DNA of 32,890 nucleotides from a virus: positions 1-32,890 of the IMG/VR virus record IMGVR_UViG_3300042691_022595, one strand, 5' to 3'. The position numbers and the translations under genes were made by a program. The notes under the pieces are model-generated. The model saw only the letters and a program-made list of their open reading frames with translations. It was not told the DNA's origin and did no database searches. Each line of letters begins with the position of its first letter. The stretch's first letter is position 1. Positions 14,479 through 24,993 of the stretch are shown here, one piece after another.

Positions 14479-14536
14479 TCACGCACACCCATCGAGTAGG
14501 CTAAACTGGTCTCCTCAGACTTCTTAGGAGACCCAC
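14479..14536 (+). promoter_or_regulatory. Promoter overlapping an SD-sequestering hairpin
   Basis: TTCACG (14479-14484), a 17-base spacer and TAAACT (14502-14507) form a plausible promoter; TAGGCT at 14497-14502 is an alternative -10. Directly downstream is a perfect 8-bp inverted repeat, 14508-14515 with 14526-14533, separated by a 10-base loop. The right arm contains the AGGAG ribosome site (14526-14530) for the ATG at 14537. Transcription from the TAAACT box would start near 14514, removing most of the left arm. Confidence 0.5.
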
Positions 14537-19211: not shown

Positions 19212-19251
19212 GAAGAGGCCTCCTCCCGGAGTAGTGGGAGGGGGCCTCTTC
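19212..19251. terminator. Strong convergent (bidirectional) terminator hairpin
   Basis: A 16-bp stem pairs 19212-19227 with 19236-19251, with one G-U pair and an 8-base loop. It lies 11 bases after the protease stop and 33 bases beyond the end of the last minus-strand gene, so it can stop transcription from both sides. There is no long T tract, as is common in high-GC hosts. Confidence 0.85.
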
Positions 19252-20885: not shown

Positions 20886-20932
20886 GTGTCCTCCGAAGTA
20901 CGTATGGTGCTCTCAGTTTAGCAGGCTGAGCA

Positions 20933-21079
20933 TCAGAAAGAGTCGATGGCCCAGTTCACGGCGACGATCGCGATCGAGAGGCAGACGGCGATGAAGGATC
21001 CCGCCACGACGAAGGCCACGACGACTCCCGCCGTCTGGTAGGGGGCATTGGTCTTGGGGTCATTCTCAGGAGTAGTCAT
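20933..21079 (-). CDS. 48-aa single-TM protein
   Basis: The frame runs from the minus-strand ATG (CAT at 21077-21079) to the TGA at 20933-20935. The N-terminal 17 residues are polar (TTPENDPKTNAPYQTA), followed by one membrane segment (about 18-43) and a short end (NWAIDSF). No Shine-Dalgarno lies at normal distance, but TAGGCT lies six bases before the ATG, as at 2356, so it may be leaderless. It heads the minus-strand cassette and may act with the holin-like protein, as a second membrane component or antiholin, though nothing in the sequence settles this. Confidence 0.6.
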   Translation of the reverse strand: MTTPENDPKTNAPYQTAGVVVAFVVAGSFIAVCLSIAIVAVNWAIDSF

Positions 21080-21085
21080 GCCGTC

Positions 21086-21116
21086 AGCCTACCACTTTAT
21101 CCGGCCAAGTGTGCAA
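21086..21116 (-). promoter_or_regulatory. Minus-strand promoter candidate, possibly leaderless
   Basis: On the minus strand, TTGCAC (21116-21111) is followed after 19 bases by TAGGCT (21091-21086), then six bases and the ATG at 21079. The spacer is longer than usual, so the promoter is tentative. It would drive the whole reverse cassette and diverges from the plus-strand promoter at 21112-21140, which it overlaps. Confidence 0.4.
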
Positions 21117-21140
21117 ACCCGACTAAACCTGTGCTATGCT
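21112..21140 (+). promoter_or_regulatory. Extended -10 promoter for the capsid operon
   Basis: TGCAAA (21112-21117) is followed after 17 bases by TATGCT (21135-21140), which carries a TG one base upstream (21132-21133), giving an extended -10. Transcription would start near 21147, leaving a leader of about 120 bases before the capsid ATG at 21266. It is the best plus-strand promoter in the window. Confidence 0.6.
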
Positions 21141-21186
21141 CTCTCTAGGAGACGGTTGCTTAGCGCACCGCTCACGTCGAAACGAG

Positions 21187-21261
21187 ACCCACACCCGAGC
21201 ATGTCTGCCCGGTGGGTACTTGAGTTTCGCGTACCTTCCTCCGGTTCAGACAGGAAGGTAC
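21187..21261 (+). promoter_or_regulatory. Capsid leader with SD-sequestering hairpin
   Basis: A perfect 10-bp inverted repeat pairs 21231-21240 with 21252-21261 around an 11-base loop. The right arm holds AGGAAGG (21252-21258), the ribosome site 7 bases before the capsid ATG. Upstream, GGTAC at 21215-21219 could instead pair with GTACC at 21231-21235, and ACCCAC (21187-21192) with GTGGGT (21212-21217), so alternative folds exist. The main hairpin is clear; any switching is a guess. Confidence 0.7.
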
Positions 21262-21265
21262 TTCC

Positions 21266-23293
21266 ATGGACGAGGTCATCAAGGACCTCCTCAACAGGCT
21301 TTCTAGCCTGAATGAGGAAGAAATGGCTGATCTCGAGTCTCAGATTCTTGCCTCCTACGAGGCAATCGAGTCTACCGAGCACTCCACCGAGTCCGTCGAC
21401 ACAATGTTCGCATTGGCCGACGCACTGGAGGCTGTCCGCACTGAGCAGGCAAATCGTGTCGCTGCCGCCAAGGAACTTGAGGACCGTGCCGCTGAGGCCG
21501 CTGCTCGGATCCGGGGTACGCAGGGAGACGACGCTGCTGAGGACGAGCCGCTCGAGGATGAGGTTTCTGAGACCGAGGTCGACGCTGAGCCCGACCCGGA
21601 GGAGGACAAAGAGGAAGAGATGTCCACTGAGGCATCCGCCACTACGGCAGACATTGAGCCTGCCGAGTCTACCGCTGGAGACAACACCCCTGAGGACGAC
21701 ACCGAGGCTCCGGCTGACGACGTGGAGCCCGTAGAGGAGGTCGGGGGTTCGGAGAACGACACCGCATCTACCGCGGCATCTGTTGAGGCTGAGGACGAGA
21801 CGGACGTCACCGACGAGGTCGTCGAGAACGACGCCGACGAAGACGAGGTCGTCTCTGAGGCTTCCACCGACGCACCTGCTGGGGCCGAGGCCGCAGCAGC
21901 CGAAGACAACACCACTGAGGTCCCCGCACCCGCGGAGGCCAGCAACGCTACTGACTCTCAGGAGGAGACCCCGATGACTGCTTCGGGTACCGACGAGAAC
22001 CGTAACGACGACGCGGCCCTTTCTCGCCCCGAGAGCCACGCACCCGTCGCCACGGTCCCCACGCTCGTCACGATCACTGCCGGGGCCGACATTCCGGGCA
22101 TCACTGCCGGAAGCACCATCGAGGACATGAAGAGCGTTGCGAGTGCCTTCACCAAGCGCCTGGACACGATCCGTCGTGTTTCCGGTGGCGACGGTGAGCA
22201 GCACGTGGTTGCTTCGTTCCAGACCAGCCTCCCCGAAGACCGCCTGCTCGGTGCAGACCGCTCCCGCAATGCTGAACTGATCAGCGGCGCGCTTGCTCCG
22301 TCGGCGCTGACCGCTTCCGGTGTCTGTGCCCCGATCGCTGGGTACTTCGAGGTTCCGGGCATGGGTGTTGTGGACCGTCCGGTCCGCGACGCGCTTGTCG
22401 GCTTCGGCGCTGACCGTGGCGGTATCCGCTTCGTTCCGGCTCCGGCGCTGACCTCGTTCATCTCGGAGACCACGGCGGCTAACTCCGCTGTCGGCCTGTG
22501 GGACGGCCAGACCGGCGACCGCAAGGGTGGCCTGGGTACTGGTGTCAAGCCGTGCCTCGTCGTCGACTGTGGTACCGAGTCGAGCGTCTACGTTGACGCT
22601 GTCACCGCGTGCCTGGTATTCGACAACATGAACGCCCGCGCGCACCCCGAGATGGTCGCCCAGAACAACGAGTTGGCGCTCGTTGCTCACGCCCGCCTCG
22701 CCGAACTGACGCTGCTGCGTGCGATCAAGACGGCCGGTACCGCGCGTACCGCCGCCGCGACCGCCCCGCAGGGTGTCGGCTTCTCGCGCCAGTTCCTGCT
22801 GGACGTGGAGATCACCGCGTCGCGCTACCGCTCGACGCACCGTCTGTCGGACAGTTCGACGCTGCGTGCGATCATCCCGGGCTGGGTCAAGTCCGCCATT
22901 CGGGCCGACCTCGTCCTCCAGGCCCCCGGCGACTACACCTTCGACCGTGCTGACCGCGAGATTGAGGCGTTCTTCACGACCCGCAACATCGTTGTCGCGT
23001 GGTCGCTCGAGACGCTGACGAACTTCGGCACCACTGGCGCCGGTACCTTCCCGACCACGGTCGAGTGGGACCTGTTCCAGGAAGGCACGTTCCTGTTCGT
23101 CGATGGTGGCAACCTCGACCTCGGCATCATCCGTGACTCCTCGCTCGTCGAGACGAACGCCTACAAGCAGTTCGTTGAGACCTTCGAGGCCGTCGCGCGC
23201 ATCGGTGCTTCGTCGATCCACACCACCGGTACCGTGTCGATCTCGGGTGGCGCTGCTGCTCTGGCTGACACCATCACCGGTTCGGGCGCCTGA
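21266..23293 (+). CDS. Scaffold-major capsid fusion protein
   Basis: This 675-aa protein starts at the ATG at 21266 (SD AGGAAGG within a hairpin). Residues 1-85 form a helical segment (NRLSSLNEEEMADLESQIL), 86-236 are extremely acidic and low-complexity (D, E, A, T, S, P, V), and from ~237 the HK97-type capsid begins (MTASGTDENRNDDAALS). Capsid-like features include RAHPEMVAQNNELALVAHAR, a long helix through ARLAELTLLRAIK, and the C-terminal ETNAYKQFVETFEAVARIGA. The N-terminal part likely acts as internal scaffold (delta-domain-like), removed by the protease at 14537. A strong internal start at 21974 may also make the capsid part alone. The antisense frame of 695 codons is a shadow. Confidence 0.9.
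   Translation: MDEVIKDLLNRLSSLNEEEMADLESQILASYEAIESTEHSTESVDTMFALADALEAVRTEQANRVAAAKELEDRAAEAAARIRGTQGDDAAEDEPLEDEVSETEVDAEPDPEEDKEEEMSTEASATTADIEPAESTAGDNTPEDDTEAPADDVEPVEEVGGSENDTASTAASVEAEDETDVTDEVVENDADEDEVVSEASTDAPAGAEAAAAEDNTTEVPAPAEASNATDSQEETPMTASGTDENRNDDAALSRPESHAPVATVPTLVTITAGADIPGITAGSTIEDMKSVASAFTKRLDTIRRVSGGDGEQHVVASFQTSLPEDRLLGADRSRNAELISGALAPSALTASGVCAPIAGYFEVPGMGVVDRPVRDALVGFGADRGGIRFVPAPALTSFISETTAANSAVGLWDGQTGDRKGGLGTGVKPCLVVDCGTESSVYVDAVTACLVFDNMNARAHPEMVAQNNELALVAHARLAELTLLRAIKTAGTARTAAATAPQGVGFSRQFLLDVEITASRYRSTHRLSDSSTLRAIIPGWVKSAIRADLVLQAPGDYTFDRADREIEAFFTTRNIVVAWSLETLTNFGTTGAGTFPTTVEWDLFQEGTFLFVDGGNLDLGIIRDSSLVETNAYKQFVETFEAVARIGASSIHTTGTVSISGGAAALADTITGSGA
21960..21976 (+). 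promoter_or_regulatory. Internal ribosome site and start codon
   Basis: AGGAGGAG (21960-21967) lies 6 bases before an in-frame ATG at 21974, codon 237 of the capsid fusion. Initiation here would give a ~439-aa capsid without scaffold. A weaker in-frame ATG at 21620 (codon 119) follows GAGGAAGAG. The 21974 site has a better ribosome match than most genes here. Confidence 0.65.
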
Positions 23294-23323
23294 TCCAGTC
23301 GCCTGAATGACAGTCCGTACACG

Positions 23324-23413
23324 CTCAGCAGCCCCGAAGGGATAGCAACTGATGGCCTACAAGGGATACTTTCCCGCATCACCGGTCAAGGCTGCCCCCT
23401 TCGGGCTGCTGAG
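23324..23413 (+). promoter_or_regulatory. Long-range stem enclosing the start of the next gene
   Basis: The left arm 23324-23341 pairs with the right arm 23397-23413 over 17 bp with one bulged C. The left arm includes the AAGGG ribosome site (23337-23341) for the ATG at 23352, which lies in the ~55-base loop. The right arm is already coding (residues ~16-21), so the pairing spans non-coding and coding DNA. This could hold down translation of the second capsid-like gene relative to the capsid. Confidence 0.6.
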
Positions 23414-24185
23414 TGTGGCGACTGTCGTCGAGCACGACGAAACCGACCTGCAATGGGCCGGGTTCGACTTCGACTATGTGGCTCCCGCCAACGGCTACAC
23501 CGCGGGGGTGTGGTCGACGTGCGCGTCGACCCCCGCCGCGGTCCTGTACAACTCCTCCTCAGCCGAGCGCTTCCCGACCGGGAACGCGCTCGGTATCACG
23601 GTAGATCGTTCCTGCTCGGTACTAGGTGAGACCCCTGAGGAGCGCTTCGACGATATCGAAGCGGCCCTCGACCTCATTACGGGCAAGGCACTCGAGCGTG
23701 AGTTGTGGACTGGAGACTTCGCCAAGACCCTCACTCCGGACGGCTTCTTCCTCGCGTCGGCTCTGGCCGTTAACGCTGGTACTGCGGCGTCCCCCGTTCA
23801 CGGCCTCGCACTGCTTGAAGATGCAGTCGCTGCGTGCAGCATGGGTGAGCAGACCACGATCCACATGACCAGAGGAACCGCCACCGCGCTCGGGGGTGAC
23901 GTCATCGCCGAGCGCGATGGTGTCCTCGAGACCACTGGCGGATCCCTGGTGTGCGCTGGACCGGGCTACCCGGGAACTGGCGCTGATGGGACCACCAAGA
24001 CGTTTATCTACGCCACTGGCCCCATCACCGTACATCTTAGCCCAACGTCTGTGGTCGAAGACCGCGCAGCGTCCGGGTTCGACGCAACTGACAACACACT
24101 CCTGGTCAGAGCCGAGCGCTTTGCAGCCTTCACTGTAACAAGTGAATGCCTGTTCCGCGTTCAGGTCGATTTGGCCGATCTCTAA
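23352..24185 (+). CDS. Second capsid-like/minor head protein
   Basis: This 277-aa protein starts at the ATG at 23352. It follows the capsid gene directly and has a capsid-like composition: ERFDDIEAALDLITGKALEREL helix, WTGDF, then ALLEDAVAACSMGEQTTIHM and GTATALGGDVIAERDGVLET, and a beta C-terminus. Proteins with this 'helix, then AxxLLExA, then GtATAL' layout are widespread after capsid genes in actinobacteriophages and are probably minor capsid, pentamer or decoration proteins. I cannot place it firmly in a family. It lacks a scaffold-like N-terminus and a protease site is not visible. It precedes the tail-tube gene, so it probably completes the head. Confidence 0.75.
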   Translation: MAYKGYFPASPVKAAPFGLLSVATVVEHDETDLQWAGFDFDYVAPANGYTAGVWSTCASTPAAVLYNSSSAERFPTGNALGITVDRSCSVLGETPEERFDDIEAALDLITGKALERELWTGDFAKTLTPDGFFLASALAVNAGTAASPVHGLALLEDAVAACSMGEQTTIHMTRGTATALGGDVIAERDGVLETTGGSLVCAGPGYPGTGADGTTKTFIYATGPITVHLSPTSVVEDRAASGFDATDNTLLVRAERFAAFTVTSECLFRVQVDLADL

Positions 24186-24203
24186 GAGAAGGGAAGGCAT
24201 CAC

Positions 24204-24947
24204 ATGCCTACTCAGGACTACGCGGCTAGTGTCCAGGGTGTCGCTGTCCGCATCACCGCGCTGGAGTCCAACGGAGCACTCTCCACGACCGCCGGTCGTT
24301 CCGTCGTCACCTCAGCGTTCACGCGTGTTTCGTTCACCCCCGAGTACGAAGAGGGCGACGAAGTCACCGAGAAGGGCGCAGACGGCGCTGTCTGCGTCAC
24401 GTACAAGGCACCTGACACGCTCAAGCGCGTCAACTTCGAGATCGCGATTTGCGAGCCCGACCCCGAGATCACCTACCTGCTGGGTGGCGGTGTACTGCTG
24501 ACCGACGGCAGCCCCGTTGTCGCTTCCGGCTGGGCCGCACCGAAGATCGGTGAGGACCCGACTCCGAACGGCGTCGCGATTGAGGTCTGGTCGCGTGCGA
24601 TCCAGGACGGCAAGATCGCCAACACGAACCCGTACTTCCACTGGATCTTCCCCTACGTCAAGACGCGTGCGTCCGGCGACCGGGTTGTGGAGAACGGCCT
24701 GCTCGCAAACACCTTCGAGGGATTCGGTGTCGGAAACACCGGGTTCAACGAAGGCCCCGACGGTCGCTGGAACTGGCCTGCTGTGGACGACCGTGCGTAC
24801 GCGTACGCTCGCTCCGCCTGGGCGCCGGTCGGACTCAAGGGACCATACACCTGGAACGCGACGACTGGTGTCGGCACTGCCGTAACCACGATCACGGACC
24901 CGGGTGCTGGTATCGGAACTGGCGACAGCATCTACGACGCAGTGTGA
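24204..24947 (+). CDS. Major tail (tail tube) protein
   Basis: This 247-aa protein has a strong ribosome site (GAAGGGAAGG) before the ATG at 24204. It matches the actinobacteriophage major tail protein type: N-terminal VQGVAVRITALESNGA, an FTPEYEEGDEVTEKGADG strand pair, then TYKAPDTLKRVNFEIAICEP and DPEITYLLGGGVLLTDG, and GVAIEVWSRAIQDGK. It should polymerise into the tail tube around the tape measure. The start codon also lies in a small 6-bp palindrome (AGGCAT-CAC-ATGCCT, 24195-24209). In most siphophages the connectors come before the tail tube; here the tube gene comes first. A strong hairpin lies after its stop. Confidence 0.85.
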   Translation: MPTQDYAASVQGVAVRITALESNGALSTTAGRSVVTSAFTRVSFTPEYEEGDEVTEKGADGAVCVTYKAPDTLKRVNFEIAICEPDPEITYLLGGGVLLTDGSPVVASGWAAPKIGEDPTPNGVAIEVWSRAIQDGKIANTNPYFHWIFPYVKTRASGDRVVENGLLANTFEGFGVGNTGFNEGPDGRWNWPAVDDRAYAYARSAWAPVGLKGPYTWNATTGVGTAVTTITDPGAGIGTGDSIYDAV

Positions 24948-24953
24948 TTCGTT

Positions 24954-24993
24954 GGCAGCGCGTGGGCCCGGTATACTGGGCTCACGCGCTGTC
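24954..24993 (+). terminator. Strong hairpin after the tail-tube gene, possible terminator
   Basis: An ~18-bp stem, with three G-U pairs on the plus strand, pairs 24954-24971 with 24976-24993 around a TATA loop. It begins 7 bases after the tail-tube stop. No T tract follows, so it may be an attenuator, RNA-processing site or mRNA-stabilising element rather than a full terminator. TATACT (24972-24977) in the loop also resembles a -10 box, without a well-placed -35. Confidence 0.55.

Follow-up and report, generated by a model that had tools for sequence, protein, structure and literature searches.

In bacteriophage T4, hairpins in the messages of e, soc, 49 and I-TevI bury the ribosome site and/or the start codon, and lysozyme synthesis from start-burying transcripts is 100-fold lower, as described in the part of the T4 literature drawn on here (PMC3014915). 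Gene e also has late promoters just 5' of its ribosome site, which yield transcripts without the 5' arm and provide temporal control, and the proteins gp32, gp43 and RegA repress translation at structured or other start regions, according to the same sections (PMC3014915). The leader of MS2 offers a period of translation before its final structure folds, in the portion of the source that deals with it (PMC6733600). Among actinobacterial phages, the Start-Associated and Extended Start-Associated Sequences (SAS and ESAS) of Cluster K mycobacteriophages are inverted repeats at translation starts (PMC3203893), and similar start motifs occur in Microbacterium phage clusters (PMC7302621). The function of these start-linked repeats is given as unknown in the parts of both reports used here (PMC3203893, PMC7302621).

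The element described here lies between the hexamer and pentamer capsid genes of a 32,890-base virus record, the whole of which was analyzed and is called the window; a search of the record found the junction DNA once. As in the T4 genes covered by that source, the message folds back on itself so that a helix contains the ribosome site and/or the start codon, but the 3' arm of the window stem is inside coding sequence, at a hexamer/pentamer capsid junction. T4 gene e has, in the same source, late promoters that skip the arm, whereas a search for sigma70-like promoters found none in 20900-24500 of the window. The leader-controlled gene of MS2 is the maturation gene, encoding a low-copy virion protein, and its leader is an upstream cloverleaf. 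Both systems would have a late-forming structure that confines translation to a limited time, as far as the MS2 source describes it, the delay here being a prediction; MS2 is an RNA phage, whereas the window belongs to a DNA phage, in which the arm that closes the structure lies downstream and within the gene. SAS and ESAS share the link of inverted repeats to translation starts in actinobacterial phages, but are conserved motifs at many starts, and in Cluster K they precede the start codons of non-structural genes, in the portions of those reports used here; the window junction occurs once in its record, at a structural gene and with one arm in coding sequence, so the stem shows neither the repetition at many starts nor the upstream position of those motifs. 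The REP element between malE and malF is a stabilizing intergenic hairpin that separates a highly expressed gene of an operon from a sparsely expressed one. It is similar in its place between an abundant and a sparse gene and different in that the stem of the window and its like (class A, below) encloses a start codon. No description of an element at the hexamer/pentamer junction was found in searches of the open-licence PMC literature.

How does a phage with separate hexamer and vertex proteins obtain the very unequal amounts that it needs from adjacent genes? An icosahedral head with a portal contains 11 pentamers compared to 60(T-1) hexamer subunits.

A long stem encloses the start of the pentamer gene

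The product of the upstream gene has homologues annotated as major capsid hexamer protein. The downstream gene matches a family entry of unknown function, and its homologues are named "major capsid pentamer protein" in 8 of the 40 matches listed (61 records matched), the others being hypothetical. An AlphaFold2 model of its product (mean pLDDT 77.6, pTM 0.76, from a 42-row alignment) matched HK97-fold capsid proteins and encapsulins when compared with the PDB by Foldseek (best E 3.2e-8), with moderate TM-scores of 0.27-0.57 among the 50 PDB matches listed. Because of these matches the product is, as modeled, a second HK97-fold shell protein, and it joins this fold to homology with annotated pentamer proteins; its putative place at the vertices follows the annotation of such proteins in other phages. 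Farther upstream, the 14537-19201 gene encodes a 1554-residue protein, possibly a fusion, whose part 837-1269 matches portal and head-maturation-protease families. The features of the junction are as follows.

21266-23293, plus strand: hexamer (major) capsid gene; phrog_777 major head protein, E 6.4e-67
23309-23341, plus strand: left arm of the stem, intergenic; 30 paired bases, one-base bulges at 23316, 23319 and 23335
23336-23342, plus strand: ribosome site GAAGGGA; 6 of 7 bases paired, at the top of the stem
23352-23354, plus strand: pentamer start codon, in the loop region; bases 2 and 3 paired in a weak inner helix of the best fold
23352-24185, plus strand: second capsid gene (pentamer protein), HK97 fold as modeled; phrog_779, E 9.7e-26
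23397-23426, plus strand: right arm of the stem, unbroken; pentamer codons 16-25 (PFGLLSVATV)
23309-23315 with 23420-23426, plus strand: stem helix 1, 7 bp in the minimum-energy fold
23317-23318 with 23418-23419, plus strand: stem helix 2, 2 bp in the minimum-energy fold
23320-23334 with 23403-23417, plus strand: stem helix 3, 15 bp, the longest unbroken run
23336-23341 with 23397-23402, plus strand: stem helix 4, 6 bp in the minimum-energy fold

The first-pass annotation of this DNA had reported a 17-bp pairing between the ends of 23324-23413. That pairing is the core of a helix of 30 pairs, 23309-23341 with 23397-23426, in the minimum-energy fold of 23272-23452, and the ribosome site and start codon lie where they had been placed, in the left arm and in the loop. 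The core of the stem heads a list of 16 inverted repeats in the window. As in the T4 e, soc and 49 kind of control, the Shine-Dalgarno sequence is paired in a stable helix, the predicted unpaired probability of 23336-23342 being 0.0006. A search of the window against Rfam gave no match at the gathering score.

The fold of 23314-23423 reaches -61 kcal/mol compared to a shuffle mean of -36 (standard deviation 3.54; z -7.06), and the intergenic stretch paired with the first 110 bases of the gene reaches -68.4 kcal/mol (z -7.3); none of 200 shuffles did as well in either case. None of 63 other gene starts had pairing with z below -3, whereas all eight class A pentamer starts in the same run did; the lone class B pentamer start, of the second junction type described below, had z +1.34. 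These control starts comprised 15 picked by the authors from the list of open reading frames in the window and annotated starts from eight phage loci, one of them entered 6 bases off. Along the window itself, 3 of 205 positions, spaced one per 160 bases, fell below -3 and one below -5. The stem is thus real, longer than first reported and not a product of chance.

The single sliding position below -5 (23900, z -5.5) is a separate local hairpin inside the pentamer gene, where 23881-23920 holds a 20-bp inverted repeat without spacer, 85% complementary.

Two junction classes in the capsid family

Junctions were compared within one capsid family, so that rows are phylogenetically nonindependent in both sets. 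Relatives were the best 80 of 435 and later the best 80 of 378 and the best 80 of 338; L001-L003, L007 and L028-L034, which were the same contigs under other identifiers or fragments, were left out early. In the first set, 3 of 98 hexamer loci had no pentamer match and 17 of the remaining 95 junctions were dropped as identical or incomplete, leaving 78. In the second, 4 of 148 new loci had no pentamer match and 96 of 144 junctions had already been seen, leaving 48. Two tests were applied to each junction: the intergenic stretch was paired with the first 110 pentamer bases and compared with 200 dinucleotide shuffles of the stretch, and it was folded alone and compared with 100 shuffles. Class A junctions have a start-enclosing stem (pairing z below -3) and class B junctions a self-contained intergenic hairpin (hairpin z below -1.9); these thresholds were set after inspection of the first 78 junctions and frozen before the 48 new ones.

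The first set contained 21 class A junctions, with z from -5.5 to -10.7 (0 of 200 shuffles as good in each) and no local hairpin, and 54 class B junctions, with hairpin z from -2.0 to -6.9 and no long-range stem. Under the fixed thresholds, the 48 new junctions divided evenly into 24 A and 24 B, none being both or neither. Overall, the 126 distinct junctions of the two sets comprise 45 A and 78 B, none with both structures and 3 with neither under these thresholds. That 123 of 126 junctions have one of two mutually exclusive strong structures suggests a specific RNA answer to the problem of unequal capsid gene output. It also offers an aid to annotation, since the second gene is often labeled hypothetical and the element shows where the hexamer gene gives way to the pentamer gene.

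Class A extends well beyond the close relatives of the window. The nearest contigs, with pentamers 70, 60 and 61% identical to that of the window, have the same stem, and at 31-35% pentamer identity the phages Mimi, Atuin and A3Wally have a stem of different sequence at the same place, as do Pumpernickel, Big4, Cece and Zooman, relatives of A3Wally. Mimi and Atuin infect Arthrobacter and the other five Microbacterium; an RNA answer could be tested in culturable phages of these two hosts. In DSL-LC01 and in the Streptomyces and Gordonia phages whose records were opened, there is a hairpin between the genes instead of the stem.

In class B, the ribosome site lies outside the hairpin. GNRA or UNCG loops are found on the sense strand in 62 of 78 class B hairpins and on the other strand in 0 of 78; these hairpins look like sense-strand RNA. 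A comparable strand argument was tried for class A and set aside, as the excess of G.U over A.C pairs is weak (59 against 37) and the folding energy, lower on the plus strand in 22 of 45 junctions, carries no strand signal.

The three junctions in neither class belong to the Microbacterium phages Savannah (L015), Nicole72 (L024) and NoodlelyBoi (L027), which fold through the start with a strong first-codon hairpin (z -2.8, -3.6 and -4.2; 2, 1 and 0 of 200 shuffles as good). The motif codons of the pentamer gene that form the class A right arm also form the 3' arm of this hairpin. The pentamer gene in the NoodlelyBoi record is annotated from a later start than the one analyzed.

Both arms change while pairing is kept

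Each left arm pairs best with its own gene. Measured against class A relatives with less than 75% intergenic identity, the cognate combination was best in 20 of 21 class A junctions with one tie, and the mean pairing energy was -51.6 kcal/mol for cognate and -30.6 kcal/mol for 394 noncognate pairs. In the enlarged class A set, the cognate was strictly best in 36 of 45 and not strictly best in 9. Among codon-aligned columns of the right arm, 29 of 39 hold pair types that differ on both sides, a count that leans towards structure because the pairs were taken from each sequence's own best duplex. When the 21 class A junctions were aligned by sequence only (A4), the left arms were misaligned by eye, and this alignment was set aside for pair-count and R-scape-type tests. 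The stem is maintained in evolution: its sequence differs between clades in both arms, with pairing kept, and of the starts tested, those at the hexamer/pentamer junction alone have the covarying feature.

The pairing might instead be a by-product of the protein, with conserved GLLSVA codons that happen to complement the intergenic sequence. The right arm does coincide with the best-conserved protein motif of the pentamer gene start, and its codons are not significantly frozen at synonymous sites (3/8 against 42/130, Fisher p 0.52, in the first clade tested; 4/8 against 40/145, p 0.17, in the second). Against such a coincidence stand the pairing scores of the first 21 class A junctions and of the 24 added later (z -4.6 to -7.6, again 0 of 200 shuffles in each), the lack of comparable pairing at the 63 control starts and the preference for the cognate partner, so that this explanation can hardly be right.

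The junction class follows the pentamer gene

On the hexamer tree (78 rows), class A does not form one clade and requires 4 changes. An AU test rejected class A as a single clade (p 0.0094) in a comparison of 47 of the 78 rows, from which eight remote and 23 class B rows were omitted and for which the group was chosen with the first tree already in view. A quick method, applied to 126 pentamer rows with the first 40 residues omitted, gave a tree that places all 45 class A junctions on one side of a branch, interspersed with eight remote rows that are class B or other. Multiple origins of class A, which the hexamer tree had suggested, were therefore not retained, and the grouping on the pentamer tree implies that exchange of pentamer modules explains much of the scatter on the hexamer tree. 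A direct case is provided by L159 (class A) and L167 (class B), whose hexamers are 97.7% identical over the last 480 residues compared, whose sequences diverge after the hexamer stop and whose pentamer genes and junctions differ. The class thus follows the pentamer gene rather than the hexamer gene in these sequence comparisons and, because of the trees and the divergence of this pair, the pentamer gene and the element appear to pass on together, with exchange through recombination close to the hexamer stop codon.

L165 and L211 likewise have hexamers that are 95.6% identical over the compared part, followed by different pentamer genes and junctions; here too the sequences diverge past the hexamer stop, as at a recombination boundary separating the capsid genes.

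Start accessibility and possible roles of the junction

The median predicted cost of opening the start region is 19.0 kcal/mol in 21 class A junctions and 7.7 kcal/mol in 54 class B junctions, a difference that includes any effect of base composition. In 8 of 11 class A phages tested, the pentamer start is costlier to open than both the start of the hexamer gene and that of the tail gene, the exceptions being L014, L016 and L017. To follow the growing transcript, openness was predicted at equilibrium. For window transcripts that end at +15 to +48 from the start codon, the unpaired probability of the ribosome site is 0.47-0.67; the value is 0.47 at +48, drops to 0.03 at +51 and is 0.00 beyond that, from +54. 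The opening cost rises by more than 5 kcal/mol from +40 to +100 in 34 of 45 class A junctions compared to 3 of 77 class B junctions; the other 11 class A junctions have no such rise.

The first-pass annotation had raised the possibility of translational control. The stem is kept through changes on both sides, the ribosome site of the window is predicted to be almost wholly paired, and translational control of the pentamer gene is a good candidate, although burial is not uniform: the unpaired probability of the ribosome site is below 0.2 in 12 of 21 class A junctions and reaches 0.60, 0.46 and 0.50 in L016, L017 and L018. We suggest that a cis-acting RNA element uncouples the scarce pentamer protein from the abundant hexamer protein, the two genes being adjacent and probably on one message. 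In class A, the left arm with the ribosome site would pair with codons 16-25 and trap the start codon in the loop. On the nascent message, the ribosome site would stay partly open until about base 48 of the pentamer gene is transcribed and is predicted to close once transcription has gone a few bases further into the right arm. Since the site would close once the right arm appears, each message may load a few ribosomes at the pentamer start and then fall almost silent; the hexamer gene and, on the downstream side, the tail gene are outside the stem. That the RNA element keeps pentamer output below hexamer output in this way, with copy-number balance as the benefit, has in our estimate about an even chance of being correct. 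Several observations weigh against it: class B, the majority, leaves the ribosome site outside the hairpin, the leader of the hexamer gene is itself structured, and the exceptions given above for site burial, opening cost, its rise with transcript length and cognate preference point the same way, as do the right-arm codons that are not significantly frozen and the class A stems that fold equally well on either strand.

The main rival, because of the exposed ribosome site of class B, is an effect on message stability or processing, in which the stem blocks 3'-5' exonucleases or is cut on both strands by RNase III, the hexamer message outlives the part downstream and the burial of the start in class A is secondary. 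RNase III needs about 20 or more base pairs of double-stranded RNA, a length exceeded by the window stem with its 30 pairs and three one-base bulges. A strong junction hairpin is common to class A, class B and, in the first codons, the three remaining phages, and is the sole family-wide feature; the position of the class B ribosome site implies that the family-wide job cannot be burial of that site, and the sense-strand tetraloops, with U tracts mostly absent, also count in favor of this reading. Such a role leaves unexplained why the start is inside the class A stem and why the ribosome site is predicted to close so sharply when the right arm appears, and a double-strand cut in class A would destroy pentamer coding sequence. 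We regard it as possible but less probable than translational control, and the two could act together. Also tentative is a broader proposal in which the hexamer-pentamer junction is an obligatory RNA gauge of capsid stoichiometry with two interchangeable designs, a stem acting as a cotranscriptional timer (A) and a tetraloop-capped hairpin (B), each inherited in the pentamer module and swapped by recombination at the hexamer stop.

Two further alternatives would act through other machinery. A capsid protein or another phage protein might bind the stem as an operator and exert feedback on pentamer synthesis. Translational repressors of this sort are known in phages, T4 gp32, gp43 and RegA among them in the part of the T4 source used here (PMC3014915), and a single gene of the record has the element. 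Across clades, however, only pairing is kept and not the stem sequence, and no shared loop motif was noticed, which makes an operator unlikely. An attenuator that halts a fraction of polymerases between the capsid genes would suit the strong, intergenic hairpins of class B, a few of which are followed by a T-rich stretch (at least 4 T among the 8 bases 3' of the stem in 5 of 54). It is nevertheless very unlikely: most class B hairpins have no U tract, the class A stem has no terminator-like site, and expression of the downstream tail and adaptor genes would drop too. For an intrinsic terminator proper, a GC-rich stem would be followed directly by a U tract, which neither the window stem nor most class B hairpins have; a search of 20900-24500 covering loops of 3-8 found no terminator at the stem, and no T run follows the right arm by eye. 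Readthrough of the hexamer stop was also considered and discarded: the frame is open across the junction in the window (by eye), but in L004 and L005 it is interrupted by a stop codon after only a few codons.

Other hairpins in the window

Buried ribosome sites or start codons had also been noted at three other structural genes, together with the idea of a control shared by all four. Hairpins do exist at 14508, 21231 and 24204 but are unremarkable in strength (z -1.70, -1.97 with the leader and -0.86, respectively), and a shared control was rejected because they are not conserved. The hairpin at 14508 has z -0.06 in L004, the one relative folded, and is not kept. The palindrome at 24204 is within chance in the window and in both relatives folded (-0.67 in L004 and -1.29 in L005). 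At 21231, a different helix covers part of the ribosome site in three relatives, two of which were folded with the leader and gave -3.46 (L004) and -1.80 (L005).

The hexamer gene leader is structured in all three records (window 21170-21275; L004 5905-6010; L005 1310-1420). In L004, the structure with z -3.46 is a long stem holding part of the ribosome site, and the window uses a different local hairpin. Strong inverted repeats also occur in two gaps between genes of the window: 19212-19251, after the 14537-19201 gene (16 bp, 94% complementary), and 24956-24991, which separates the tail gene from the gene for the head-tail adaptor (18 bp, 89% complementary).
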